64,000 nt of DNA from NCBI GenBank assembly GCA_945288535.1, contig CALYQQ010000009.1, positions 1-64,000 on the forward strand. The letters are read 5' to 3'. The notes under the pieces are model-generated. The model was not told where the DNA came from, did not search any database, and saw nothing but the letters and a program-made list of their open reading frames with translations. Both the position numbers and the translations under genes were made by a program. Source of the stretch: an uncultured Enterobacterales bacterium (lineage in GTDB: Bacteria > Pseudomonadota > Gammaproteobacteria > Enterobacterales > CALYQQ01). Within the stretch, counting starts at the first letter, position 1. Each line of letters opens with the position of its first letter. Below are positions 4,505-64,000 of this stretch, in pieces.

Positions 4505-7830
<3,326 letters not shown>

Positions 7831-8970: not shown

Positions 8971-9405
8971 ATGAATATTATATCGACCTTACATAAAGTT
9001 ACAGGATTTTTAGCTTTAACATTAATATTAATATTTATAACAAGCTCTATTTATATTGAAATAAATGGAAATGTTATTTTAATTCAAAAAGTCAAATCAC
9101 TAATAGTCTTTCCAGGTTTATTTATTTTAATTCCAAGCTTAATTATTACAGGTTCTGTTGGATTTCGCCTTGCTGGACAATCAAAAAACGTTTATATTTT
9201 AAAAAAGAAAAAGAGAATGCCATTTATTGCTTTAAATGGAATATTCATTCTCATTCCATGTGCTTTATATTTAAAATATCTTTCAACACATACGTTAGAT
9301 AGTACTTTTTATTTAGTTCAAACCTTAGAGATATGTGCAGGATTTATTAACTGTGTATTAATAATCTTAAATATTCGAGATGGGATCTGGATTAAAAAAA
9401 AATAA
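8971..9405 (+). CDS. Small four-helix membrane protein, function unknown
   Basis: 144 residues starting at ATG 8971, chosen over an in-frame TTG at 8941 because AGGAGAAG lies just upstream. Four hydrophobic segments are visible at about residues 8-28, 40-62, 84-103 and 114-135, separated by short basic loops (KKKKR near 78-83), so an integral inner-membrane protein is likely. One His in the first helix region (LHKVTGF) recalls small heme or copper membrane proteins, but that is weak. It lies directly upstream of the duplicated leader units of the polyketide operon and on the same strand; whether it belongs to that system is unknown. Confidence 0.5.
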   Translation: MNIISTLHKVTGFLALTLILIFITSSIYIEINGNVILIQKVKSLIVFPGLFILIPSLIITGSVGFRLAGQSKNVYILKKKKRMPFIALNGIFILIPCALYLKYLSTHTLDSTFYLVQTLEICAGFINCVLIILNIRDGIWIKKK

Positions 9406-9472
9406 AATTTATTACTTAGTCAACCCTTGTGGTCTTGATAAGTTATATTTAGTACTAATATAAGGATATGTT

Positions 9473-9589
9473 ATGTATATTGAATATATAATTTCACTAT
9501 TCATGGACGTTAATACTTCGCTTGATCATCTCAATAAAAATATTGAGATTTGGTCAAAAATTTTACCTTCCTATTTAATACAAATATAA
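9473..9589 (+). pseudogene. Cyclase 5'-end copy 1 (truncated)
   Basis: A 38-codon frame beginning MYIEYIISLF that parallels the start of the intact cyclase (MYTEHIVSLP), including the IEIWSKILP segment that matches VEIWPRIFP, then a TAA. Similarity continues a few bases past the stop. It keeps a plausible ribosome binding site, so a short peptide could still be made. Confidence 0.7.
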
Positions 9590-9682
9590 TAAAAGAATAA
9601 ATAACTAATAAAATATAATCTTTAATTCATTAATTTTTATAACTATGACAATTTATATTTTATACTACTACAAGGATATATT

Positions 9683-9808
9683 ATGTATATTGGACATATG
9701 ATTTTATTAACTATTAATATTAATTTACTATTTTTTCAAAATGAAAATAGTAACGTTCGGTCATATATTTCCTTTCCTTATTTAAAAATTAAAATAAAAA
9801 ACAATTAA
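9683..9808 (+). pseudogene. Cyclase 5'-end copy 2 (truncated, most diverged)
   Basis: A 41-codon frame beginning MYIGHMILLT. Similarity to the intact cyclase start is weaker than in copies 1 and 3, but the leader, ATG position and the ending around SFPYL match the unit. It ends in TAA inside an AT-rich run. Confidence 0.55.
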
Positions 9809-9890
9809 ATAATAAATAGTATATTATTCTTACTTAGTTAATTTTTATAAGTTTTAAAATTTATATTTCATATTAATATAAGGATATGTT

Positions 9891-9992
9891 ATGCAACTTG
9901 AATATATAATTTCATTTCCTATTGATGTTAATTCTTTATTTCATTTATGTAAAAACCTTGAAGTTTGGTCACAGATTTCTCCTCCTATTTAG
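9891..9992 (+). pseudogene. Cyclase 5'-end copy 3 (truncated)
   Basis: A 33-codon frame, MQLEYIISFPIDVNSLFHL and so on, the closest of the three to the intact gene. It stops at TAG because of a small deletion; beyond the stop the DNA still aligns with the intact gene (TTTAGATGCT and the following AATAAAGCA) to about 10015. Confidence 0.75.
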
Positions 9993-10096
9993 ATGCTGAT
10001 AATAAAGCATTCGAATACCAAACAGTCTATTGATCTTATTTAGTCAATCTTTGTAGTCTTGGTAATTTATATTTCATACTAGTACAAGGATATGTT

Positions 10097-11020
10097 ATGT
10101 ATACTGAACATATAGTTTCACTTCCCATTGACGTTAATTCAGCATTTGATCTATGCAGAAATGTCGAAATTTGGCCACGCATTTTTCCCCCTTGTTTAGA
10201 TGCTAAAATAATAAAGCAATCGAATGATAAACAGTATATTTCTCTAACCGCATTAGCAAATGGTAAGGTTTTTAGTTGGAAGTCTGAACGCGATATTGAT
10301 GTAGTAAATAAAACAATACGCTTTGAACAAACGCATAAATCACCTTTAGTTAAATTTATGACAGGAGAATGGAAAGTCAATAAATATCTAAATGGCAGTC
10401 AAATTGTATTAAAACATACATTTGATATTAAAAATGATATTAAAAATCTCGTGCCTGGTGTAAATACAGAAGCTGAAGCAATTGCCTTTATGAGAAAATC
10501 TGTTGATGAAAATAGTACTAAAGAATTAGAAGCTATTAGAAAGTATGTGAATTATTTAAATAATCACCATAAGTTTAGTGAAAAATTAATTATTCCTTTC
10601 AGTAAGTCAGCCGTTTTTAAGTTTTTGAAGGATGTCCAGCATTGGCCAGATTTATTATCTCATTGTCAAGCCATTAATATGCTATATGAGGATGAGTATA
10701 ATCAAGAGTTTGAAATGACCGTCTCCACACCAGATTATACAGAGCATTTAAGATCCATTCGTTATATTGGCGATAACTATATTCGCTACTTTCAACCCGT
10801 CCCTCCCCCAGTTTTAAAAGAGCATCGTGGTCAATGGAGTGTTAAAGAGGTACCTGAAGGTGTTGAGGTTATCTCGTGGCATGAAATTGTTTTAAGTGAG
10901 CAGTATGCTAATGAAGTACAAGATATACAAAAAGAAAAAGAAAAATTTGAAAAGGGAATTAATCGCGCAAGTCTTAATACTATGAAGGCCATTTTAAATA
11001 AACTACAAGGAGGTGTTTAA
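10097..11020 (+). CDS. Didomain polyketide aromatase/cyclase (SRPBCC)
   Basis: 307 residues forming two START/Bet v1-like (SRPBCC, polyketide cyclase) domains, at about residues 1-140 and 155-300. Each begins with the family pattern: VSLPIDVNSAFDL with VEIWPRIFP, and IIPFSKSAVFKFL with VQHWPDLLS. This two-domain layout is that of the ActVII/Gris type, which cyclises and aromatises the first ring of a C9-reduced poly-beta-ketone bound to the ACP. Its stop overlaps the ketoreductase start by one base (TTTAATG), so the two are translationally coupled. Ring-closure specificity is inferred from the partner ketoreductase. Three truncated copies of its 5' end precede it. Confidence 0.87.
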   Translation: MYTEHIVSLPIDVNSAFDLCRNVEIWPRIFPPCLDAKIIKQSNDKQYISLTALANGKVFSWKSERDIDVVNKTIRFEQTHKSPLVKFMTGEWKVNKYLNGSQIVLKHTFDIKNDIKNLVPGVNTEAEAIAFMRKSVDENSTKELEAIRKYVNYLNNHHKFSEKLIIPFSKSAVFKFLKDVQHWPDLLSHCQAINMLYEDEYNQEFEMTVSTPDYTEHLRSIRYIGDNYIRYFQPVPPPVLKEHRGQWSVKEVPEGVEVISWHEIVLSEQYANEVQDIQKEKEKFEKGINRASLNTMKAILNKLQGGV

Positions 11021-11793
11021 TGACCAAGAATGCAGTTATTACAGGCGCAAGCAAAGGAATAGGTAAAGCAATAGCGCAAAGATTAGTCTCAGACGGTTAT
11101 AACTGTGTATTAATGGCAAGAAATGAAAAGGCGCTCTCTTTAGCCGTTGATCAATTAAAAAACAATGAAGTTAAGGTTAGCTATGTTGTCTGTGATGTTA
11201 CACAACCAATGCAAGTTGCAGAAGCCTGGCGTGAAATTACGAGTAAAGTTGATTGCGTTGATGTATTAGTTAATTGTGCTGGTCGTAGTGGTGGAGGCAT
11301 AACAAAAGACCTATCAACTCAACTATGGTTAGATGTTATCAACACTAATCTAAATTCTGTATTTTTTGTTACGAGTACCGCTTTAAAAAATAATTTCATT
11401 CGTCAAGGTGGCAGTATTATTAACATTGCAAGTACTGGTGGAAAACAAGGCGTTATCCATGGAGCGCCTTATAGTGCCTCTAAACACGGTGTTGTTGGTT
11501 TTACCAAAGCACTGGGATTAGAGCTTGCTCGAAATGGTAGCAAAATTACAGTTAATGCAGTTTGCCCAGGGTTCGTTGAAACAGAAATGGCAGAAGAAGT
11601 CAGAGGCAATTACGCTAAATTGTGGAATACCACAAGCAGTGAAGTGAAAAAACGTATTGAAGATAGGATCCCCATAGGTCGTTATATAACGCCATCCGAA
11701 GTTGCAGCGATGGTATCTTTTTTATCTTCTGATGAAGCTAGAGGAATAACCGCCCAAGCGATTAATGTTTGTGGTGGATTGGGTAACTATTAA
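11020..11793 (+). CDS. ActIII-like polyketide ketoreductase (SDR)
   Basis: 257-residue short-chain dehydrogenase, strikingly like the actinorhodin C9 ketoreductase ActIII. It has TGASKGIG (residues 8-15) for NADPH, the catalytic set N110, S138, Y151 and K155 (YSASKHGVVGFTK), the NIASTGGKQGV and NAVCPGFVET segments, and the C-terminal VCGGLGNY. Predicted role: reduction of one keto group of the nascent ACP-bound polyketide before or with first-ring cyclisation. At the loop where ActIII has Pro-Gly-Gly, this protein has S90-G91-G92. An AAGGAGG ribosome binding site lies at 11007-11013. Distinguished from FabG by the C-terminus and the neighbours. Confidence 0.9.
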   Translation: MTKNAVITGASKGIGKAIAQRLVSDGYNCVLMARNEKALSLAVDQLKNNEVKVSYVVCDVTQPMQVAEAWREITSKVDCVDVLVNCAGRSGGGITKDLSTQLWLDVINTNLNSVFFVTSTALKNNFIRQGGSIINIASTGGKQGVIHGAPYSASKHGVVGFTKALGLELARNGSKITVNAVCPGFVETEMAEEVRGNYAKLWNTTSSEVKKRIEDRIPIGRYITPSEVAAMVSFLSSDEARGITAQAINVCGGLGNY

Positions 11794-11843
11794 TTAATTC
11801 GTAATTTGTTAGTTTACTTTTAAATCATTAATCAGGATTTTTT

Positions 11844-13121
11844 ATGGCTAGATTAGATAATAAGCCTGTTGTTATTACAGGTTTAGGTATTGTTGCGCCT
11901 GGAGCAATAGGTATAAAGCAATTTTGGGAAAAATGTATAGAAGGCCAAAGTGGTGTTTCTAATATAGACACTTTTAATACTGACCAATTTGATGCAAAAA
12001 TTGCAGGTATTGTAAAAGAGTTTGACCCCACAAAATATGGCGTCACCGAAGAACAAATTAATACATTTGATCGTTATGTTTTATTCGCGCTAGTTGCTGC
12101 TCAAGAAGCGATGAAACAGTCTGGATTAACCGAATATAATATGGATCCCACTAGAATCGGCGCCTGTATTGCAACAGCCATTGGTGGGACAAAATATATG
12201 GAGGAAGAGTTTTTAAGATTAACTAATAATTGCCATGAAGAATTAAATCCAGAATTGGTTTCGCCCAATATATTTGCAGGCGCTAGTTTTCATATGGCAA
12301 GCGCAGAAGTAGCTAAACAATACAATATACAGGGGCCAATACAAACCATAACAACGGGGTGCACAGCAGGGTTAGATGCGGTTGGACAAGCATTAGAACT
12401 CATTCGCACTGGTAAGGCAGATGTTGTTATTACCGGCGCGAGTGAAGCGCCTATTACGCCAATTGCAATGGCTGCATTTGATATCATCGGCGCATTAACA
12501 AGTGATCGTAATGATAATCCAGATAAGGCATCTCGCCCTTATGACAAAACTCGCTCAGGTTTTGTATTAGGTGAAGGATGTGGCTTGTTTATTTTAGAGT
12601 CAAAAGAACATGCACAAAAACGTAATGCGAAAATACTCGCAGAAGTTAAAGGATATGGTTCAACTTGTAACGCTTATCATATGACAGATTTATCTCCTGA
12701 AGGTGATGACTTAGCTAGAGCCATTAAACTTTCATTAGAGGATGCAGGTTTATGTCCCGATAAAATTGATTGCATTAATTCTCATGGAAGCTCTACGCCT
12801 CAAAATGATGTCAATGAAACAAATGCGATTAAGAAAGCTTTAGGGGATCATGCCTATAAAATCTCGATAAGCTCGTTAAAATCAATAATGGGACATGCAC
12901 TTGCGGCTGCTAATGCGATTGAACTCGTCGCAGGTGTGTTATCTATAGTCGAGCAAAAAGTATACCCCACCATCAATTATAAAGTTCCAGATCCTAATTG
13001 TGATTTAAATTATGTTCCTAATCAGGCTAAACCACTAAAAATAGACTACTTATTAAAAGATGCAAGTGGATTTTCAGGCATACATAGTTCATTAATCCTC
13101 GCAAGAAATATCTCGGACTAA
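11844..13121 (+). CDS. Type II PKS ketosynthase alpha (KS-alpha)
   Basis: 425-residue beta-ketoacyl synthase that condenses malonyl-ACP extender units as a heterodimer with the next gene product. The triad is intact: C173 in TTGCTAGLD, H314 in INSHGSSTP and H351 in IMGHALAAAN, with K346 nearby. The TGCTAGLD context and the length fit type II PKS KS-alpha, and the neighbours (chain length factor, ACP, cyclase) rule out a housekeeping FabF. It starts 50 bases after the ketoreductase. No dedicated malonyltransferase is present, so FabD of fatty acid synthesis probably loads the ACP. Confidence 0.92.
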   Translation: MARLDNKPVVITGLGIVAPGAIGIKQFWEKCIEGQSGVSNIDTFNTDQFDAKIAGIVKEFDPTKYGVTEEQINTFDRYVLFALVAAQEAMKQSGLTEYNMDPTRIGACIATAIGGTKYMEEEFLRLTNNCHEELNPELVSPNIFAGASFHMASAEVAKQYNIQGPIQTITTGCTAGLDAVGQALELIRTGKADVVITGASEAPITPIAMAAFDIIGALTSDRNDNPDKASRPYDKTRSGFVLGEGCGLFILESKEHAQKRNAKILAEVKGYGSTCNAYHMTDLSPEGDDLARAIKLSLEDAGLCPDKIDCINSHGSSTPQNDVNETNAIKKALGDHAYKISISSLKSIMGHALAAANAIELVAGVLSIVEQKVYPTINYKVPDPNCDLNYVPNQAKPLKIDYLLKDASGFSGIHSSLILARNISD

Positions 13122-13183
13122 CACTATAAGGCTATATAACAATGTCAGAATATTCAGATTAACATTATAAGGATATAAAAATG
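13118..13183 (+). repeat. Short tandem duplication of the KS-alpha/KS-beta junction
   Basis: The end of the KS-alpha gene with its following AACACTATAAGG and ATG is repeated about 39 bp later as AACATTATAAGG and the true ATG of the next gene. The first copy leaves a six-codon frame (MSEYSD, 13142-13162) between the two synthase genes. Confidence 0.65.
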
Positions 13184-14284
13184 ACAAGAAATGTTGTTAT
13201 TACAGGCGTTGGCACTCTATTACCGGAAGTTAACTCATTAGAACAGCTTTATAATATTCACTCTTTAGATAAGGAGATCTCAATCAAAAAAAATGGCGAT
13301 ATTGTTGCCACAGTAATTAACACAGAAATCATTAGTCAATATATTGCCCCTAGACTCGCTAAAAAACTAGACGAATTTACTTGTTATGCATTGATTGCAG
13401 CTCAATTTGCTTTAGATGATGCTCAACTAAACTTAGACACCATTGATAAAAAACGTTGTGGTGTATTTGTTGGTAATAGTTTTGGTGGCTGGCGATTTAC
13501 AGAACGTGAATTATATAAATTACATATAGAAGGACCACGAGCCGTCAGCCCATTTCAAGCGACAAGCTGGTTTCCTGCTGCTCCGCAAGGTCAGATTACC
13601 ATTAAATATGGAATAAAAGGATTTAGTAAAACTTTTATGGCTGATCGTTCAAGTAGTTTACACAGTGTTTCTGCAGCAGCAGATCAAATTAAAAATGGTC
13701 GATTAGATTTTGCTATTGCAGGTGGCTGTGAAAGTATTAACTGCCCATTCGTAGTGGCCGCTTTATCTAAATTAATCTCGAATAGTTTTTTGATTAAAAA
13801 GAGTAAATTTCCAATATCTGAAGGCGCTGTGTTCTTTATTTTAGAAACCGAAGAAACAGCTAAAGCGAGTGGACGAAAAATATACGCCAGACTGGGCAAC
13901 TTAGCTATTTCAAACTTGCCTTGTGAGTCCAATCTTTATGGTACAAGGGCTCAACCTTATGAGCGAGCAATGTCTTTAGCACTCACTAATATTAAACCTG
14001 ATGTGATTTTAACGGATGCAATAAGTTTACCAGATGTTAATAAAGCTGAACTTGATGCTGTGAGAAAAGTATGCGGTGATGTTGCTATCTCTACCCCTAA
14101 ATTGAAGTTTGGTCATAGCTTTGGTACTGAAGGAGCATTAGATATCGCCTACGCTTGTTTAATGCTCAATAAACAGAAAAACTTTTTGAAAAAAAATGAT
14201 ATTAATCAATCCATTAACAATGTACTGATTAACTCTAGTGCTGTTGGCGGGAGTGTCAGCAGTTTATTATTAAGTAACTTATAG
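13181..14284 (+). CDS. Type II PKS chain length factor (KS-beta)
   Basis: 367-residue ketosynthase-like partner of KS-alpha, expected to set chain length and generate the acetyl starter by decarboxylation. Aligning by eye with the KS-alpha (L, V, I, G and D positions fall in register), the active-site Cys is replaced by R156 in MADRSSSLHS. Well-known chain length factors have Gln there, in an ADQ context. The first catalytic His is also lost, while KFGHSFGTEGA keeps the second. The protein is shorter than typical 400-residue homologs. Position directly between KS-alpha and ACP is diagnostic. Whether Arg still supports priming cannot be told from sequence. Confidence 0.87.
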   Translation: MTRNVVITGVGTLLPEVNSLEQLYNIHSLDKEISIKKNGDIVATVINTEIISQYIAPRLAKKLDEFTCYALIAAQFALDDAQLNLDTIDKKRCGVFVGNSFGGWRFTERELYKLHIEGPRAVSPFQATSWFPAAPQGQITIKYGIKGFSKTFMADRSSSLHSVSAAADQIKNGRLDFAIAGGCESINCPFVVAALSKLISNSFLIKKSKFPISEGAVFFILETEETAKASGRKIYARLGNLAISNLPCESNLYGTRAQPYERAMSLALTNIKPDVILTDAISLPDVNKAELDAVRKVCGDVAISTPKLKFGHSFGTEGALDIAYACLMLNKQKNFLKKNDINQSINNVLINSSAVGGSVSSLLLSNL

Positions 14285-14296
14285 AGAAATAACAAA

Positions 14297-14530
14297 ATGA
14301 CTGAATTAACTAACATTGTTTTAGAATCAATTAAGAATTATTTAGGTTCCGTAAACGCCAATATCAACCTCGACACTTTATTAGATGAAGAATATAACTT
14401 AGATTCTACTGAAATGGTTTGTATTGCTGTTGATATAGAAAAAAAGATCGGTAAAAGCCTGAAGGAGGTTTCGTTTAGTAGTTTAAAAACACCAAGAGAT
14501 GTTATCAATTCTATTAAAGAGCTTGTATAA
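14297..14530 (+). CDS. Type II PKS acyl carrier protein
   Basis: 77-residue acidic carrier protein, the cofactor-bearing carrier of the polyketide chain. The phosphopantetheine site is S37 in YNLDSTEM; the usual motif is DSL, so a Thr follows the Ser here. Helix 2 (DSTEMVCIAVDIEKKIG) and the C-terminal PRDVINSIKELV are typical. It follows the chain length factor by 12 bases. A dedicated Sfp-type transferase at the end of the operon is the likely activator. Confidence 0.9.
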   Translation: MTELTNIVLESIKNYLGSVNANINLDTLLDEEYNLDSTEMVCIAVDIEKKIGKSLKEVSFSSLKTPRDVINSIKELV

Positions 14531-14555
14531 CACTAGTAATTGAGGAAGAAGGGGT

Positions 14556-15110
14556 ATGCATATTTATATTGATTTTATTGATAAAAATAACAAAATAGGT
14601 TTACCGTTATTATATACTCAGGATATAGAACGAGTACGACAATGGTATTTCATTTCAGCAAATATTCCTGAGTTATCTTTAGGCAACTATCAATATAATA
14701 AAAGTAAAGATATTGTTGTCTCTTTGCTTTCAAAGGCTACCCCTAACCTTAGCAAAAATGGACACGTCTATAAAATTGCCAAGCATGGATTTAAAAAGGG
14801 CATTTCAAAAAAAAATAAAAAGGATTTTTTTCTTATTACAGCATGTAAAGTTGATAATCAAATTGAAGAAATTCGTTTTTTAAAACAATTTGATACGGCT
14901 TTAACATATATAACTAATCAAGAAGGATTTGTTAGGTTCTGGCTATTACAAAATCTATCTAAAGAGGGACCTTATCGTTACATTAATATAGCCCAATGGA
15001 AAAATCTTGATTATTTCATGAGTACATTCAACAACAAAAAGTTCCAAGAAAAATTAGATAGCGAGTTGAGTATGCGTAACCAAATTACTATCTCAAAATT
15101 AAAATTCTGA
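14556..15110 (+). CDS. ABM-type monooxygenase-like protein 1
   Basis: 184 residues. The C-terminal half is a clear antibiotic-biosynthesis-monooxygenase (ABM, dimeric ferredoxin-like) domain with FVRFWLLQN and YINIAQWKNLDYF. The N-terminal half is weak: it is shorter and lacks the recognisable second ABM pattern that the next three proteins keep. ABM proteins in aromatic polyketide clusters (TcmH, ActVA-Orf6) oxidise anthrone-type rings to quinones without a cofactor. Of the four paralogs this is the most degenerate, so a non-catalytic or partner role is possible. Ribosome binding site GAGGAAG lies upstream. Confidence 0.65.
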   Translation: MHIYIDFIDKNNKIGLPLLYTQDIERVRQWYFISANIPELSLGNYQYNKSKDIVVSLLSKATPNLSKNGHVYKIAKHGFKKGISKKNKKDFFLITACKVDNQIEEIRFLKQFDTALTYITNQEGFVRFWLLQNLSKEGPYRYINIAQWKNLDYFMSTFNNKKFQEKLDSELSMRNQITISKLKF

Positions 15111-15131
15111 TAAATCAATATAGGGACAAAT

Positions 15132-15731
15132 ATGCTATATAATATTGATATTATAAAAGATGAAATCGTCGTTACTAATTGGAAAAATGCTATAGATAAG
15201 CAATGTAAGTTTACTGGATTTAAAGAAGCTAAGTTACAAAAAGTTTATAAGAAAATTAATATTGATGGCTATGCTTATGTCAGTATAGTCGCTTGGGATA
15301 CAGCAGATAACTACCATAATGCCTTACACGAAGTAAAAAAAACTCAAGAACAACACTGCACATTATTTAGTAACTCATTTTTTATTATCAACTCGGCAGA
15401 TAATCAGAAAGAAATAGAGAGAGGCGTAGATGATAAGACTAAACTTATTGTCACCAATCCTTATCGTATTTCAACCGTCGATGCCGAAAAAAATGCTGAG
15501 ATGTGGGACATATCAAAAAAGCATATGCAAAATCAGGATGGTTTTATTCGGGCAAGGCTTTATCAATGTACCGACGCTAAAGGTGAGTATTATTTTGTTA
15601 GCCAAGCTGAATGGCGTACAGAAGAAATGTTTATGAAACAATTTGAAGGAAAAGACTTTAAACAAATTATAAAACCATTTGAAAAAGTTTTTTCAATTTG
15701 CTTTTTGCATGAATTAACTAGGATAGATTAA
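15132..15731 (+). CDS. Two-domain ABM-type monooxygenase-like protein 2
   Basis: 199 residues with two ABM-like halves, about residues 1-95 and 100-199. The first has FKEAKLQKVY and YVSIVAWDTADNY; the second has FIRARLYQC and FVSQAEWRTEEMF. Each matches the family pattern of a beta strand, then (I/V)xxW, then an aromatic-containing helix. A cofactor-free ring oxygenase acting on the cyclised polyketide is the best guess from context. It lies 21 bases after paralog 1 and 16 bases before paralog 3. Heme-degrading IsdG-like proteins share the fold, but the neighbourhood argues for polyketide tailoring. Confidence 0.75.
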   Translation: MLYNIDIIKDEIVVTNWKNAIDKQCKFTGFKEAKLQKVYKKINIDGYAYVSIVAWDTADNYHNALHEVKKTQEQHCTLFSNSFFIINSADNQKEIERGVDDKTKLIVTNPYRISTVDAEKNAEMWDISKKHMQNQDGFIRARLYQCTDAKGEYYFVSQAEWRTEEMFMKQFEGKDFKQIIKPFEKVFSICFLHELTRID

Positions 15732-15747
15732 ACAATAGGGAGTAATA

Positions 15748-16377
15748 ATGATTTATATTTTTGACCTTATCACGACACCAGAAGTGGAAAATACAATTAA
15801 ACTATGGCGTTCGATAGGTAAGCTATTATCTGCTAATAAAGGCTTTTTAGGTGGACAATTACTAGAAACACAACAGAGTATTCATCCTAGAAAAGATTAT
15901 AAACTATCGAGCTTTTGTATCTGGGAAAACAATGATGATTGGCAAAATGCGAGAGCCAAAGTTAAACAAAATACAGAAGTTATCAAATTATTAGGTTCAA
16001 ATGAAAGTAAGTTTCATCCTTTTTATGCAGAACTGATTGCAGGAAAAGGCTTTCATTGTAAACAGCCAAAAGATGAAATGATTTTAATAGATATTGTTTA
16101 TTTACCTCCTGAAAGAATGGATGGTTATATCAATATGTGGAATAAAGCTAAGGCATATATGGAACATAAATCAGGATATATCAATGCCAGCCTTTATAAA
16201 ACAATAGATTCATCTAATGAAATGAAATTTATCAATATTGCTGAATGGCAGTCTTTTGATGTATTTGATACAGCTTTAAATAATGAAGAATTTATAGCTA
16301 TTTTAGGTGAATATAAAAATGACTTTGCATTATATATCAGTAAACGAAAACACCTGCTAAATATACATCCTAACTAA
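15748..16377 (+). CDS. Two-domain ABM-type monooxygenase-like protein 3
   Basis: 209 residues, two ABM-like domains: FLGGQLLET with LSSFCIWENNDDW in the first half and YINASLYKT with FINIAEWQSFDVF in the second. The start is supported by AGGGAGT at 15737-15743. It is the best-preserved of the four tandem paralogs at both W-containing motifs. Predicted to modify the aromatic polyketide, most likely by hydroxylation or quinone formation; substrate unknown. A 97-base gap follows, holding a 9-bp stem hairpin (16398-16406 with 16418-16426) that may be a processing or attenuation site inside the operon. Confidence 0.78.
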   Translation: MIYIFDLITTPEVENTIKLWRSIGKLLSANKGFLGGQLLETQQSIHPRKDYKLSSFCIWENNDDWQNARAKVKQNTEVIKLLGSNESKFHPFYAELIAGKGFHCKQPKDEMILIDIVYLPPERMDGYINMWNKAKAYMEHKSGYINASLYKTIDSSNEMKFINIAEWQSFDVFDTALNNEEFIAILGEYKNDFALYISKRKHLLNIHPN

Positions 16378-16474
16378 CTTATTAATCTAAAAAACTATTC
16401 TCAAAATCATACTACATTTTTGAGAAAGTTTGTTGTGCAGAAAATTTAGTTTGAACTAAAACAGGAACTAAACA

Positions 16475-17086
16475 ATGCATTATGTGATAGAAGTTATCAA
16501 GCAAAGTAATAAAAAAGCTGAAGTTCGTGAACAGTTGCACAAATATATTCATTCTATTCTCTCTCTTCAAGGACTCATCACAGTCGAATTGTTTGAAAAA
16601 CATACAAATATTCGTGATGCTGATTATGATTTTACCATACTCAGTAGTTGGTTGTCAGAGCAAGATTATTTAACGTCAAACAAAATAGCCAATAACCTCA
16701 TTGATAAAAATATAGAAATACATGCAAGCTATCAATGTGAAATCAAACTTGGGGAAATTGATAATCACGATACCACATATTGTTGGTTAATTAACCCATT
16801 TGAGGTAACGCACGAGCAACTACCAGATGTAATTGATATGTGGGATAAAGCCAAAGATCATCTCATCATAAAACCAACTTTTGTAAGCGCAAGACTATTT
16901 AAAGCTTTAGATAAAAATGCAACTTATGGTCTAGTCAATATCGCACAATGGAGAGATGCAAAACAATTTTTGCAGGCTGTTGAAGAAAAAGAATATGAAC
17001 CGCATAAAGAACGATCTTTAGCTTATCGATTACATGCCTCTCTTTGTGAGCGGATAGCCTTTTATACACCATTAAATTCAAAATAA
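16475..17086 (+). CDS. Two-domain ABM-type monooxygenase-like protein 4
   Basis: 203 residues, two ABM-like domains. The first half reads LITVELFEKH with TILSSWLSEQDY; the second reads FVSARLFKAL with LVNIAQWRDAKQF. AGGAAC upstream of ATG 16475 is a plausible ribosome binding site. Divergence from paralogs 1-3 is about as large as among them, suggesting an old series of duplications with separate tasks rather than recent amplification. Function inferred from family and context only. Confidence 0.76.
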   Translation: MHYVIEVIKQSNKKAEVREQLHKYIHSILSLQGLITVELFEKHTNIRDADYDFTILSSWLSEQDYLTSNKIANNLIDKNIEIHASYQCEIKLGEIDNHDTTYCWLINPFEVTHEQLPDVIDMWDKAKDHLIIKPTFVSARLFKALDKNATYGLVNIAQWRDAKQFLQAVEEKEYEPHKERSLAYRLHASLCERIAFYTPLNSK

Positions 17087-17097
17087 TAGGATAGGTC

Positions 17098-17826
17098 ATG
17101 GAAAAGATAAAAAAAACGGCATTAATTACTGGTGCGAGTAGAGGTATAGGTAAAGCTATTGCCACCTATTTTGCAAGCAAGGAGTATAATCTAATACTCA
17201 TAGCTAAAAATTATAATACTCTAGAAAATCTAAAGAATACATTGAACTTAACGTATGGTGTAAATATACAGATTATTAGTATTGACTTGACAGACGCAGC
17301 ACAAATAAATACTAAATTAACTAGCGTATTAGGTGAACTTAAACAGTTAGATATTGTTGTAAACTCTGCAGGCGTTTTCAAGTTTGGTTCAAGTACACTT
17401 CCTCTCTCTGATCTTAATGAAATGTTTTTATTAAATGTGCAGGCAACACATCACATTTGTACCTTATGTTTACCCTTGCTTAAGGCTAATTTAAATAAAA
17501 CATATATTTTTAATTTATCGTCAATCGCAGGCGTTGAAAGCTTTGCGCCAATCGCCGGTTATGTTGCAAGTAAACATGCAATAGTTGGCTATAGCCAATC
17601 GTTGGCTAAAGAGGTGATTAATCATAATGTTAGTGTGGTATCCCTCTGTCCAGATACGGTTAATACCGATATGGCCATTCCGTCAGGTATGCCGAGTGAT
17701 CTTATGATAGAACCAGAAGATTTATGTAAAACTATTGATTTCGTTTTATCGCTTTCAAATGAAGCCGTTGTTAATCAAATAGTATTACGTTGTAAGACGC
17801 TAATAGAAAAAGAAAACCAAAGATAA
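17098..17826 (+). CDS. Tailoring short-chain dehydrogenase/reductase
   Basis: 242-residue classical SDR with TGASRGIG (residues 11-18), an NSAG motif, a catalytic Ser in FNLSSIAG, and YVASK for Tyr and Lys. It is clearly different from the ActIII-like enzyme: it lacks the GGLGNY tail and the STGGKQG segment. In this setting a second ketoreduction, or a post-cyclisation reduction of a ring or quinone, is likely. It lies 11 bases after ABM protein 4 and one base before the phosphopantetheinyl transferase, so it is surely in the operon. Confidence 0.8.
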   Translation: MEKIKKTALITGASRGIGKAIATYFASKEYNLILIAKNYNTLENLKNTLNLTYGVNIQIISIDLTDAAQINTKLTSVLGELKQLDIVVNSAGVFKFGSSTLPLSDLNEMFLLNVQATHHICTLCLPLLKANLNKTYIFNLSSIAGVESFAPIAGYVASKHAIVGYSQSLAKEVINHNVSVVSLCPDTVNTDMAIPSGMPSDLMIEPEDLCKTIDFVLSLSNEAVVNQIVLRCKTLIEKENQR

Positions 17827-17827
17827 T

Positions 17828-18439
17828 ATGCATAAAAAATGGGTTATTATACCTTTTACTGGTATAAGTGACATTAATTATAACTCATCAAATAGTTATG
17901 TTTTTTTAATAGAAGGAACAGCAAATTTTTTAAGAAAGAACAGCATGTTACTTGCTATCCTACTGTTAAGAAAACTAACTCAACAGGATCTTGTAATTAA
18001 AAAAAACAAACAGGGAAAACCCTATATTCCTAACAGTAGTTTAGCTATTAGTCTCAGCCATAGTGCGAATTATTTGGCTATTGCTTTTAGTCAACGAAAT
18101 GTTGGTATTGATATTGAGTACTTACGCTATCCAAATAAATGGTTGGACTTGTTTTATTGGATTACTCAAGATGTTGAAAGGCCCACCGTAGTGTCATCAG
18201 AGTATTTTTTACGATGTTGGACGAGTAAAGAAGCTGTATACAAATTTATAGGTGGCGGTCTAAATACAAGCATACAAAATATTTTTATTCGGAATATTAA
18301 TGAGCTAACAACATGTAGGCTTAAAACTTATGATTGCTATTTAACAGAATTACCTAAATATAAAAATTTAACGATATCCATAGCTTCATTATTATTACGC
18401 CCATTTGAACTCTATTTTTGTAATTTATCTTTAAAATAA
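17828..18439 (+). CDS. Sfp-type 4'-phosphopantetheinyl transferase
   Basis: 203-residue transferase that moves phosphopantetheine from CoA to the serine of a carrier protein (EC 2.7.8.7). The family motifs are in order: ISLSHSANYLAIAF, the Mg-binding GIDIEYL, and WTSKEAVYKFIGGG. The length fits a Sfp/EntD-like enzyme rather than AcpS (about 125 residues). As last intact gene of the operon it is presumably dedicated to the ACP encoded by the cluster. Confidence 0.88.
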   Translation: MHKKWVIIPFTGISDINYNSSNSYVFLIEGTANFLRKNSMLLAILLLRKLTQQDLVIKKNKQGKPYIPNSSLAISLSHSANYLAIAFSQRNVGIDIEYLRYPNKWLDLFYWITQDVERPTVVSSEYFLRCWTSKEAVYKFIGGGLNTSIQNIFIRNINELTTCRLKTYDCYLTELPKYKNLTISIASLLLRPFELYFCNLSLK

Positions 18440-18774: not shown

Positions 18775-18797
18775 ATATAGTCTGGAGAGTGTTTTAT

Positions 18798-20155
18798 ATG
18801 ACACAATCAATTGAGTTGACAACCTCAGAAAGAAAATTAATGTTTGCTATGACACTATCTAGTGTATTGCCATTACTAGATAACAGTATTGTGAATGTTC
18901 TTTTATCCTCAATTTCGAATGACATTAACACCTCTTATGCTTATATACACAATGGACTGTTACTGTATATATGCTCGCCTGTGCTACAGGCATATTACTC
19001 TCTCCCTATATACATGAAAATTTTGGACTCAAGAAAGCATGGATATACTCAATTTTTGTTTTCTTCCTTGGTTCTATGTTGGTTGGTTTGTCATATAATC
19101 TGCTTTCTTTGATCTTATTTAGGTGTCTACAAGGTCTTGGTGCAGGGATTTTAATTCCTATTACTCAATCCATAATAGTAACTTATTTTGGTAAAGAAAG
19201 ACTAAAACCAATTATGGCATTGGTTGCTACTCCTTCAGTCTTTACCCCCGCGCTAGGACCGCTTTTTGGACAATAATATCTGAACAACTAAATTGGAGAA
19301 TAGCGTTTTTTATCAATATACCTTTAGTGCTTCTGGCTTTTTTCTTTAGCAGGACAACAATTTCTGATAATAAAACATCTAAATATAATATGAATACTTA
19401 AGTGTTTGCTACATTTCTAATTGCTTTAATACTATTTTTTATTTCTATTAAAAATATTGCTTCCGGGCATTTTTTGATATTTTTAACATTATTATACTCA
19501 TTTCAGGGGCTAGCTTGATGATAGTTTCGCTTGTAGTTAATAATAAATCAGACAATAAACTCGTTGATTTAAGTGCATTTAGTTGTGTTCAATATTCACT
19601 TACAATAAGTATGGGGGTTCTTATATCACTTATCTTTATTTAGTTTCATGATTTTTTCCTTTAATGCAAGCAATTAATATTTCTATCACATATATTGGTA
19701 TGCTGCTCGCTCTGCAAGGTGTGGGTACCTGGTTAGCTAGAAAATTTAGTTACCAAAATTTAGGTGAGATAAATTCATTTTTAATTATTGGTGTGGGATT
19801 AATATTTTCCGCAATAAGTATATTAATAATTCAAGTTGGTGGGAATTTACCAGAAATTATTGGTTTTATTGTAAGAGGTTCATAATTGGGCATTGCAACA
19901 ATTGCCATTCTCTCTTCTCCATTTGAGTTTCGCGATAAAAATCAAATTAAGGACACTAGTGCTATTACGCGTATTATACAGCAAATTGGTAGCGCATTTA
20001 GTGGTGTATTATTAGGGATACTGATTCATCTGACGCAGACTCAAATAATTTCAGCAAACTATGCTTATCAGGTAATGTTTTTCGTATCTCTTGTGTTTGG
20101 TATTATTGCCGTTATTACTTATGTCTTCTTTGGTCTAGTGAATAAAAGAACTTAG
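18798..20155 (+). pseudogene. Degenerate DHA2-type MFS exporter
   Basis: An EmrB/QacA-like drug exporter broken into at least four pieces. It starts at ATG 18798 (SIELTTSERKLMFAM, LPLLDNSIVNV), shifts frame near 18940 into LLSPYIHENFGLKKAW, where RCLQGLGAGILIPITQS is the family motif C region, hits TAA at 19274, then continues through INIPLVLLAFFFS near 19315 and further stops, QGVGTWLARKFSY near 19715, TAA at 19883 and a last piece 19886-20155 (QQIGSAFSGVLLG). As the gene after the phosphopantetheinyl transferase it probably once exported the polyketide. It cannot make a working transporter now. Confidence 0.85.
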
Positions 20156-20539: not shown

Positions 20540-21191
20540 GCGATTTGTCCGTGCTGGCTGGTTAACTCTTCCGATTAGCTTCAATAACCCCTTCTTCAGC
20601 TATGTCGTGGCAAAATAGCTCATTAAGCCAGCTGTGGCACTTTTCGGCGATAAATAACGCGCCTCGCCTCTCAATATTACGTAGCACCTTTAACACATCG
20701 GCTTTCGTCATCCGGTCAAGAGGCAGATGACCCAAGCCACGGCAGCAGAAGCTATATAACGTTCAATTTGAATGTGGCGCTTATGCTGATTATCTAGCCC
20801 CAGTTTACGGTATTTAACCGTTTTCCAGCGCAGGCTAAACGCCACAAAGGTTTCCACGATTGACGGGCTAATTATATTATCGCCAGAGCCAGTAATCGCA
20901 GTCTGACTAAGGGTGTTTGATAATGACTGTTGCTATCGTTACATAGCCCGGGTTGCGTACCTTTTTTACCAGTAGATCAGCATCCTCACAGCGTCACTGC
21001 GCCTCTTTCAGGCTGATATGGGGTACTGACTTAAAGAGATATGTCTCCGCTTGCCCTGTAAGATACAACGAAAGTGTTATGATTTTACTGCCGCTCGGGG
21101 CAATAAACAAATTCGGGACCTGAATATCTTTTAAGGTATAGGCTTTCAGCTGGGGTTTACTATTTTTTATGACTGCATCGGTTAATGCCAT
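20540..21191 (-). pseudogene. Degenerate tyrosine-recombinase integrase (P4 type)
   Basis: On the minus strand an integrase starts at 21191 with MALTDAVIKNSKPQLKAY, the usual N-terminus of P4-like prophage integrases, followed by PSGSK and ISLKEAQ segments. Frameshifts and stops follow. Further fragments can be read: FVAFSLRWKTVK near 20835 and LPLDRMTKADVLKVLRNIE near 20690, then GALFIAEKCHSWLN. The catalytic C-terminal domain is gone. The DNA is visibly richer in G+C than its surroundings. It lies just downstream of tRNA-Gly on the same strand, the classic arrangement for an element integrated at the tRNA 3' end. Confidence 0.88.
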
Positions 21192-21430: not shown

Positions 21431-21506
21431 TGGAGCGGGAAACGAGGTTCGAACTCGCGACCTCAACCTTGGCAAGGTTGCGCTCTACCAACTGAGCTAT
21501 TCCCGC
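21431..21506 (-). tRNA. tRNA-Gly (anticodon GCC)
   Basis: 76-nt cloverleaf on the minus strand: acceptor 5' GCGGGAA pairs with TTCCCGC at the 3' end, discriminator T, encoded CCA. The D arm is AGCTCAGTTGGTAGAGC, the anticodon loop CTTGCCAAG gives GCC, and the T arm contains GTTCGAAC. Confidence 0.97.
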
Positions 21507-57266: not shown

Positions 57267-60200
57267 ATGCAAATGAACAGACGTCAATTTTTCAAACTTT
57301 GCGCAAGTAGCATGGCAGGTACAACAGTTGCACTGCTAGGTTTTTCTCCCTTAACGGTTTTAGCAGGATCACGTAGTCATAAAGTATTACGTGCTAAAGA
57401 AGTCCGTAATACTTGTACCTATTGTTCTGTTGGGTGCGGCCTTCTCATGTATTGTCTTGGTGATGGCGCTAAAAATGCTACTCCTTATTTATATCATATT
57501 GAAGGTGATCCTGATCACCCAGTAAGTCGCGGAGCACTTTGCCCGAAAGGGGCAGGCTTGATTGACTTTGTTAATAGTGAGAATCGACTTCGTTATCCTG
57601 AATATCGGGCGCCGGGCTCAACTCATTGGCAGCGTATTAGTTGGCAAGACGCTATTGATAGAATAGCTAAATTGATGAAAAATGATCGAGATACCAATTT
57701 CATTGAAAAGAATGATCAAGGCGTTACAGTTAATCGCTGGTTAACCACTGGTATGCTTTGTGCATCAGCAGCTAATAATGAAACAGGTTATCTTGATCAA
57801 AAATTTAGCCGTGCACTTGGTATGCTGGCTGTTGACAATCAAGCACGTGTCTGACACGGACCTACGGTAGCAAGTCTTGCTCCAACATTTGGTCGCGGCG
57901 CCATGACAAATCATTGGGTTGATATAAAAAATGCTGATGTTATTATCGTCATGGGAGGTAATGCTGCAGAGGCTCACCCAGTAGGCTTTCGTTGGGTAAT
58001 CGAAGCTAAAATACACAATAACGCAAAATTAATTGTCGTTGACCCACGCTTTAATCGGACAGCATCTGTTGCTGATATTTATACACCAATTCGCTCAGGA
58101 ACGGACATTGCCTTTTTATCGGGCGTTATTAATTATCTTATTAATGAAAATAAAATATTTACCGAATATGTAATCAATTATACCAATGCAAGCCTGCTTG
58201 TTAGATCTGATTTTAATTTTCAGGATGGATTATTTAGTGGTTATGATGCTAACCAACGTCATTATGATAAATCTTCCTGGCATTATGAATTAGATGCAAA
58301 TGGCTTCGCGCGCCGTGATATAACATTGACTCATCCCAGATGTGTTTGGAATCTACTAAAACATCATGTTAGTCGCTATACTACCGATGTTGTTGAACTC
58401 ATTTGTGGTACACCAAAACAAGATTTTCTGGAAATTTGTCGATTACTTGCTGATACTTCCGTTGCAAATAAAACCGCCACATTTCTATATGCATTAGGAT
58501 GGACACAGCACTCTATTGGTGCACAAAATATCCGGACAATGGCTATGATCCAATTATTACTTGGTAATATTGGTATGGTAGGTGGTGGTGTTAATGCGCT
58601 TCGTGGCCACTCTAATATTCAGGGATTAACTGACTTAGGCCTCTTATCGCAATCCTTACCCGGGTATATGTCATTACCTTCAGAACAACAACCTACATTA
58701 GAATGTTACTTAACTGCCAATACGCCAAAAGCATTATTGCCAAACCAAATAAATTATTGGGCTAACTATCCAAAATTCTTTGTCAGCATGATGAAATCTT
58801 TTTTTGGCGTACATGCTCAAAAAGAGAATAACTGGGGTTATGATTGGTTACCTAAATGGGATAATGTTTACGATGTACTCCACTACTTTAACTTAATGGA
58901 TGAAGGTAAAGTTAATGGTTATCTCTGTCAGGGCTTTAATCCAGTGGCGTCTTTACCTGACAAAAATAAAGTAGTACGCGCTTTATCTAAATTAAAATTC
59001 TTAGTTATTGCCGATCCCTTAGCAACAGAAACATCTGAGTTTTGGCAAAATCATGGTGAAATGAATGATGTTGATCCTGCTCTTATCCAAACCGAAGTAT
59101 TTCGTTTACCAACAACTTGTTTTGCTGAAGAAGAAGGTTCGATTGTAAACTCAGCACGTTGGTTACAGTGGCACTGGCTAGGTGCTCAACCACCAGGTGA
59201 AGCAAAATCGGACGGTGAAATTCTTAGTCGTTTACTTATGCGATTGAGAGAATTGTATCAACAAGAGGGCGGTGTTCAGCCTGCTCCTATTATGAACATT
59301 AACTGGGATTATTTAATTCCAGAGATCCCTAGTGCCGAAGAAGTAGCTAAAGAATACAATGGTATAGCACTTACAGATATTCTGGATAATAATGGCAATA
59401 TAGTCGTTAGAAAAGGAGAGCAATTACAGAGTTTTGCTCAGTTACGCGATGATGGTACAACAGCAAGCGGTTGTTGGATTTTTACCGGATGCTGGACGCC
59501 AGCAGGTAACCAAATGGCTAAGCGCGACAACGCCGATCCGAGTGGATTAGGAAACACGCCTGGATGGGCGTGGGCATGGCCCGCTAATCGTAGAATTATT
59601 TATAATCGAGCATCATTAGATCCCCAAGGAAACCCATGGAATATTTCACGTAAACTTATCGAATGGGAGGGAAGTCACTGGACAGGAATTGATATTGCCG
59701 ATTATGGCGCCACGACACCACCTAATGCAGAAGCGGGACCATTTATTATGCAGCCCGAAGGAATGGCTCGTTTGTTTGCATTAGATAAAATGGCCGAAGG
59801 TCCATTTCCTGAACATTATGAACCCATTGAAACCCCTATAGGAACAAATCCTCTTCATCCTAATATTGTCAATAATCCGGTCGTCCGTATTTTTGACGAA
59901 GATCTCTCTCGGATAGGTTCTGCCGAACGTTTTCCTTATATTGGAACAACCTACCGTTTAACTGAACATTTCCACTTTTGGACAAAGCATTCCCAGCTTA
60001 ATGCCATCATACAACCTGAAGCCTTTGTCGAAATTAGTGAAACACTAGCTGATCTCAAAGGTATTCATCCAGGCGATCGCGTTAAAGTAACGAGTCAGCG
60101 TGGTTTTATTAAAGCAAAAGCGGTTGTAACACGTCGAGTAAGAGCACTCAATATCAATGGCAAGCAAATAGAAACGGTAGGTATTCCGATTCACTGGGGA

Positions 60201-63180: not shown

Positions 63181-64000
63181 ATGCAAGTCAGCAGAAGACA
63201 GTTCTTTAAGATCTGTGCTGGCGGTATGGCTGGAACAACGGTAGCCGCTTTGGGATTTATGCCAACCGAAGTATTGGCTGAAACACGCAATTATAAATTA
63301 TTACGCGCCAAAGAAGTTCGTAATACATGCACATATTGTTCCGTCGGCTGCGGTTTATTAATGTATAGTCTAGGTGATGGGGCTAAAAATGCCAGTGCCC
63401 ATATCTTTCATATCGAAGGTGATCCTGATCATCCAGTAAGTCGCGGGGCACTTTGCCCAAAAGGTGCGGGACTTCTTGATTATGTTAACAGCCCTAATCG
63501 TTTAAAATACCCACAATATCGAGCACCAGGTTCAACAGAATGGCAACGTCTTAGCTGGGATGACGCGCTAAATCGCATTGCGCGTTTAATGAAAGATGAT
63601 CGTGATGCCAATTTCATAAAAACCAATGAACAAGGTGTGACAGTAAATCGCTGGCTCACTACCGGTATGTTATGTGCCTCGGCAGCCAGTAATGAAACTG
63701 GGCTACTTGATCAAAAATTTGCCCGCGCATTAGGCATGCTTTCAGTAGACAACCAAGCGCGTATTTGACACGGACCAACGGTAGCAAGTCTTGCTCCAAC
63801 ATTTGGTCGCGGTGCCATGACCAACCACTGGGTTGATATAAAGAATGCCAATGTTATCGTCGTCATGGGTGGTAATGCCGCAGAAGCGCATCCTGTCGGT
63901 TTCCGCTGGGCGATGGAAGCGAAAACGCATAATAATGCTAAGCTGATTGTAATCGATCCTCGTTTTACAAGAACAGCTTCGGTAGCTGATTTTTATACTC
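63181..64000 (+). CDS. fdoG: Second formate dehydrogenase alpha subunit (partial)
   Basis: A second selenoprotein alpha subunit that runs off the window; 273 codons are visible. Tat signal [16 protein letters not shown], in-frame TGA at 63766-63768 as Sec196 (QARI-Sec-HGPT), then [15 protein letters not shown]. The protein is clearly paralogous to the first copy but diverged at many positions, so this is not a very recent duplication. AAAGGAG precedes the start. Position divergent to fdhD makes it the likely fdoG counterpart; H and I subunits would lie beyond the end. Confidence 0.93.
63766..63812 (+). promoter_or_regulatory. Selenocysteine codon and SECIS element, copy 2
   Basis: TGA plus the next 44 bases differ from copy 1 at a single position, while the coding sequence on both sides differs at many synonymous positions. 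That is direct evidence for selection on the RNA hairpin. Confidence 0.9.

Follow-up and report, generated by a model that had tools for sequence, protein, structure and literature searches.

The 64,000-nucleotide stretch of DNA analyzed here (the window), part of contig CALYQQ010000009.1 of an uncultured member of the Enterobacterales, raises the question of whether an AT-rich gammaproteobacterium carries an intact type II polyketide synthase (PKS) for aromatic compounds and, if so, where this system came from and what it might make. Positions 10097 to 18439 contain 11 genes, all intact and all on the forward strand, which encode, from 5' to 3', an aromatase/cyclase, a ketoreductase (KR), the ketosynthases KSα and KSβ, an ACP, four ABM-type proteins (ABM1 to ABM4), a second SDR reductase (SDR2), and a PPTase. 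The reading favored here, with a probability of roughly 78%, is that this is a type II aromatic PKS operon, intact and spread by horizontal transfer, which would operate by the stepwise scheme outlined below. The same 11 genes on one strand had been listed in a preliminary description of this DNA, and each was recovered intact and in its place. The gaps, described there as mostly under 60 bp, are indeed so in the majority of cases; at one extreme, neighboring genes overlap by 1 bp, and at the other, ABM3 and ABM4 are 97 bp apart. Pfam families were matched by both ketosynthases, both SDRs, the aromatase/cyclase, the PPTase, and all four ABM-like proteins; support of this kind is weak for the ABM assignments and for that of the ACP.

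An AGGA-like site is found before most of the operon starts, and promoter-like sites are no more numerous than expected by chance. Chance is ruled out as the origin of the operon itself, given that a random open frame of 425 codons at 33.5% GC has a probability of ∼7e-15 and that the gene order is kept in two other bacterial classes. All 11 frames are open, in contrast to the broken MFS transporter and integrase genes nearby, which suggests selection on the operon. The conserved unit probably starts further upstream, with a twelfth member encoding a small integral membrane protein (8971 to 9405, forward strand; no Pfam family), because this protein shows 43% identity over 139 aa to the product of an ORF (6468-6884) that lies directly upstream of the aromatase gene in Paraburkholderia. 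The Azospirillum DUF2269 gene, found in a similar place, was unconvincing as a homologue (27% identity, negative alignment score). Positions 9412 to 10035 hold three decayed tandem copies of ∼208 bp each, also on the forward strand, as judged from the repeat spacing (210/208/206) and alignment. They are copies of the aromatase leader together with the first ∼100 nt of the gene, the fourth copy being the working start.

KSα (11844 to 13121) has the catalytic residues Cys173, His314, and His351, while KSβ, the chain length factor (13181 to 14284), has Arg156 at the position of the Cys and an Asp at that of the first His; in the actinomycete factors, the position of Arg156 is mostly occupied by Gln. 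The best PDB match of KSβ is AntE (6smo_C), and that of KSα is AntD (6smo_B, 391 bits), followed by ActI-ORF1 with 349 bits and the best FabF with 342. The nearly equal scores of KSα against FabF structures and ActI-ORF1, as well as the fact that FabF is its best NCBIfam model, could point to a ketosynthase locus of the fatty-acid or aryl-polyene type instead of an aromatic PKS. Such an assignment is very improbable, however: the FabF model score of 462 falls short of the cut-off (493.75), the locus also encodes an ActIII-type KR and a didomain aromatase/cyclase, and both ketosynthases fall into well-supported aromatic type II clades. The ketosynthase tree (n = 34) included the E. coli and Listeria FabF proteins, seven other ketosynthases of the same genome, pairs from actinomycetes and Firmicutes taken from annotated plasmids, and the PDB sequences of AntD/AntE and ActI-ORF1. 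It contains a single KSα clade (support 99/97) and a single KSβ clade (100/99), with FabF and the other ketosynthases, including the seven from the same genome, outside. The preliminary description had named a grouping with FabF/FabB or aryl polyene ketosynthases as the outcome that would overturn its reading; in the tree, both proteins were placed with the aromatic type II ketosynthases and not with FabF. When KSα was analyzed alone, the support for its kinship with AntD was just 51/12. Further KS genes are present elsewhere in the 2.5-Mb genome, on contigs C5, C6, C8, C9 (C9:95099), and C24; C8 contains a 5378-residue open frame with a KS-like stretch, and the ketosynthases on C6 and C24 are tandem.

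The didomain aromatase/cyclase (10097 to 11020; Polyketide_cyc/cyc2) has BexL (4xrw) as its best PDB match, with the alignment covering residues 4 to 268, i.e., both domains (E value of 1.6e-20). The KR (11020 to 11793), with Ser138, Tyr151, and Lys155, is of the ActIII type, scoring 271 bits with the actinorhodin KR (ActIII) versus 143 bits for the best FabG-like match. In the families of ActIII-type KRs and didomain aromatases, the first ring is closed between C7 and C12 and C9 is reduced, and the same regiochemistry can be predicted here. The assignment of the ketoreductase and aromatase to the C9-reducing type, already proposed from the initial inspection, is supported by the proximity of the former to ActIII and of the latter to BexL, that is, by sequence kinship. 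The ACP (14297 to 14530) carries Ser37 in a DSTEM motif and matches the PP-binding family just below the gathering score (E value of 0.0015). The operon ends with SDR2 (17098 to 17826; adh_short, E value of 8e-41) and an Sfp-type PPTase (17828 to 18439; ACPS, E value of 3.9e-8). The KS tree, the catalytic residues, the ACP, the aromatase, and the KR all agree with the original identification of the locus as an aromatic type II PKS; it appears as such in every sequence test made, and an aromatic product is predicted.

The four ABM proteins are ∼200 aa each and consist of two half-domains. Their C-terminal halves match 2ril, RslO4 (7bio), and SnoaB in profile comparisons, although the half-domain scores are weak. 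Mutagenesis of RslO4 showed that Asn7, Asn52, and Trp56, equivalent to Asn18, Asn63, and Trp67 of SnoaB, matter (PMC8093152). ABM1 (14556 to 15110), whose orthologues are poorly alike (∼25 to 27% identity), keeps only Asn144 and Trp148 in its C-terminal half. ABM2 (15132 to 15731), with two ferredoxin-like halves, has Asn109, Ser157 in place of the second Asn, and Trp161, whereas ABM3 (15748 to 16377) has Asp115 for the first Asn, followed by Asn163 and Trp167. Only ABM4 (16475 to 17086) has the full set (Asn107, Asn155, and Trp159) of the cofactor-free anthrone oxygenases of the SnoaB/ActVA-Orf6 type, and these three residues are invariant in the alignment of its three orthologues. The four ABM proteins thus appear to have diverged from one another. 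Among them, ABM4 is the strongest candidate for an oxygenase because it alone keeps both Asn residues and the Trp of SnoaB and RslO4. ABM2 and ABM4 of the window were folded with the Paraburkholderia row alone, and the resulting models (pLDDT of 48 and 39, respectively) are usable only for their two-domain pattern. A fold search with the low-confidence ABM2 model returned two-domain monooxygenases as the top matches, which supports that architecture only.

These assignments suggest the following scheme. The ACP would be armed by the PPTase, and KSα and KSβ would build a poly-beta-keto chain from malonyl units, loaded presumably by the MCAT of the cell's fatty-acid synthesis. The ActIII-type KR could then be expected to reduce C9, and the didomain aromatase/cyclase to close and aromatize the first ring, as do other members of their families. 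The four two-domain ABM proteins may perform the remaining ring closures and/or a cofactor-free oxidation to a quinone, with SDR2 carrying out a late reduction. The most likely product is a C9-reduced aromatic polyketide, probably in the form of a small quinone or pigment. Weighing against this scheme are the lack of an ActIV/TcmI-type second-ring cyclase, of a CoA ligase or lyase like AntG and AntI, and of an intact exporter beside the operon, as well as the Arg of KSβ at the position where Gln prevails in actinomycetes. Kinship with AntD/AntE weakly suggests a chain length near that of an octaketide. The KSβ gate residues Trp104, Thr107, and Leu111 align with Phe109, Thr112, and Phe116 of the actinorhodin factor; prediction of chain length from these residues was set aside, as the approach mispredicted AntE. 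The ABM fold also includes cyclases, such as FasU (9lsd), which was matched in the ABM comparisons, parts of the Asn/Asn/Trp set are missing in ABM1 to ABM3, and type II-like systems for nonaromatic rings exist (PMC10698177), so that the locus might make a type II product other than a quinone, with the ABM proteins acting solely as cyclases or accessory proteins. This is unlikely, albeit less so than the fatty-acid assignment discussed above, since the first ring is expected to be aromatized by the aromatase/cyclase and the C9-type KR, and the full residue set of ABM4 is kept in all three orthologues.

A search for the same gene order elsewhere, as recommended in the preliminary description, was successful. 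Plasmids of Azospirillum brasilense Sp7 and MTCC4038 (Alphaproteobacteria) carry the same 11 genes in the identical order; on plasmid p3 of strain Sp7, these are AMK58_RS25500-25550, annotated gene by gene only. The identities to the window proteins range from 27 to 68%, with 68% for KR, 64% for KSα, 52% for KSβ, 45% for both the aromatase and SDR2, 44% for ABM3, 43% for ACP, 35% for the PPTase, and 27% for ABM1. In the betaproteobacterium Paraburkholderia caffeinitolerans LMG 28688 (NZ_CADIKL010000033.1), all 11 genes recur in this order and are preceded by the gene for the membrane protein. The two loci differ from that of the window in their GC content (66% and 63%, respectively) and flanks: the Azospirillum Sp7 genes have a MarR regulator upstream and an RND efflux pump downstream, and those of Paraburkholderia are flanked by Hsp70-related genes, a separate ketosynthase, and a deacetylase. 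A scan of genome contigs with two short peptide patterns gave at least one match, in Paraburkholderia, and the scanned viral contigs gave none. No orthologue was found in samples of other genomes from the same class (368), the same order (394), or the same phylum (398). The layout is rare.

The operon had initially been regarded as actinomycete-style, which for the ketosynthases is not supported by the tree: the actinomycete ketosynthases form a separate clade, within which KSα and KSβ of the window are not nested, and the best solved relatives are AntD and AntE. That the operon was recently captured from an actinomycete, as the actinomycete origin of the best PDB matches of the KR and aromatase could suggest, is highly implausible in view of this separate clade, a composition equal to that of the host window, and the fact that the proteobacterial relatives are the nearest ones (64 to 68% identity for KSα and KR versus ∼46% for actinomycete KSα). 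In the KS trees, the alpha- and betaproteobacterial copies pair with each other, with the window copy outside (100/98 and 94/96), and the grouping of the window with Paraburkholderia that is expected from the history of the organisms was weakly rejected (p-AU of 0.043). This grouping, along with the patchy distribution, favors horizontal transfer, probably followed by full adaptation to the 33.5% GC of the window, as opposed to the 63 to 66% of the Azospirillum and Paraburkholderia loci.

Downstream of the operon, an MFS transporter pseudogene (18789 to 20155, forward strand) contains frameshifts and stops, with one fragment matching MFS_1 (E value of 2.7e-13); it could be a former exporter, and no intact exporter adjoins the operon. 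A tyrosine-recombinase-like integrase pseudogene (20560 to 21191, reverse strand), identified by eye from frame translations and having an N-terminal fragment with no Pfam match, ends beside a tRNA-Gly (gcc) gene (21431 to 21506, reverse strand), a possible island attachment site. The window, the first base of which is the start of the contig, contains no second copy of the 3' end of this tRNA gene. Apparently, the locus is a genomic island that has decayed around a still complete PKS operon. At the far end of the window, two SECIS_3 elements (57849-57907 and 63763-63821), both above the Rfam threshold, point to two selenoprotein genes, possibly those of formate dehydrogenases.

Non-actinobacterial type II KS/CLF pairs, among them ones from alpha-, beta-, and gammaproteobacteria, have already been catalogued (PMC10132072), and some have been expressed (PMC6638757). 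Thus, the kind of system is already known. No paper on this gene order or its product was found in the open-access literature, supplementary tables aside (a catalogue entry may exist), and the literature on type II PKSs in combination with Azospirillum, Paraburkholderia, or Orbaceae had nothing on this locus. The early impression that the exact layout had not been described therefore stands for the literature found, but Azospirillum and Paraburkholderia share the layout with this genome. The operon belongs to a rare, non-actinomycete lineage of aromatic type II PKSs, and three loci with its conserved and apparently undescribed layout were found in all. Among other bacteria, Apilactobacillus kunkeei has a type II KSα/KSβ cluster with CoA ligase and cyclase genes on ∼33-kb plasmids (13 records, of which those listed come from honeybees). 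A plasmid of Crinalium epipsammum encodes two aromatase/cyclases (11525-12954), one of them 32% identical to that of the window; these genes sit with a type I PKS, and the stretch examined has no annotated type II pair.

The anthraquinone cluster of Photorhabdus (antA-J), which makes an octaketide precursor, resembles the window operon in that both encode an aromatase, a KR, and a PPTase besides the minimal PKS, and its AntD and AntE are the best solved relatives of KSα and KSβ. In agreement with the initial claim of a different gene set, the genes that follow the minimal PKS are not the same: the CoA ligase AntG and the chain-shortening lyase AntI of Photorhabdus have no counterparts among the 11 genes of the window, which instead include four ABM proteins and the second SDR. 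The ant cluster is not known to contain an ABM set. The actinorhodin-type clusters share the ActIII-type KR, the didomain aromatase, the KSα/KSβ/ACP logic, and an ABM oxygenase; however, their ketosynthases belong to another clade, their ABM protein is a single-domain one, they mostly have Gln in place of Arg in KSβ, and the window lacks their ActIV/TcmI-type second-ring cyclase. It is conceivable, if still rather doubtful, that these operons represent a distinct proteobacterial class of aromatic PKSs, in which the missing second-ring cyclases and flavin oxygenases are replaced by a dedicated relay of four diverged two-domain ABM proteins, yielding a new scaffold. If so, this scaffold would be unlike those of the actinomycete or Photorhabdus clusters.

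Type II PKSs, best known from antibiotic-producing actinomycetes of the soil, have rarely been studied in Gram-negative bacteria, with Photorhabdus as the worked example. The operon described here adds a compact unit of 11 or 12 genes in which the catalytic residues are intact, accessory genes are few, and the order is kept across three bacterial classes. This unit is small enough to be transferred whole into E. coli, which would allow a direct test of the function of tandem ABM proteins. Its distribution indicates that the pathway travels between distant bacteria across a range of GC contents from 33 to 66%.
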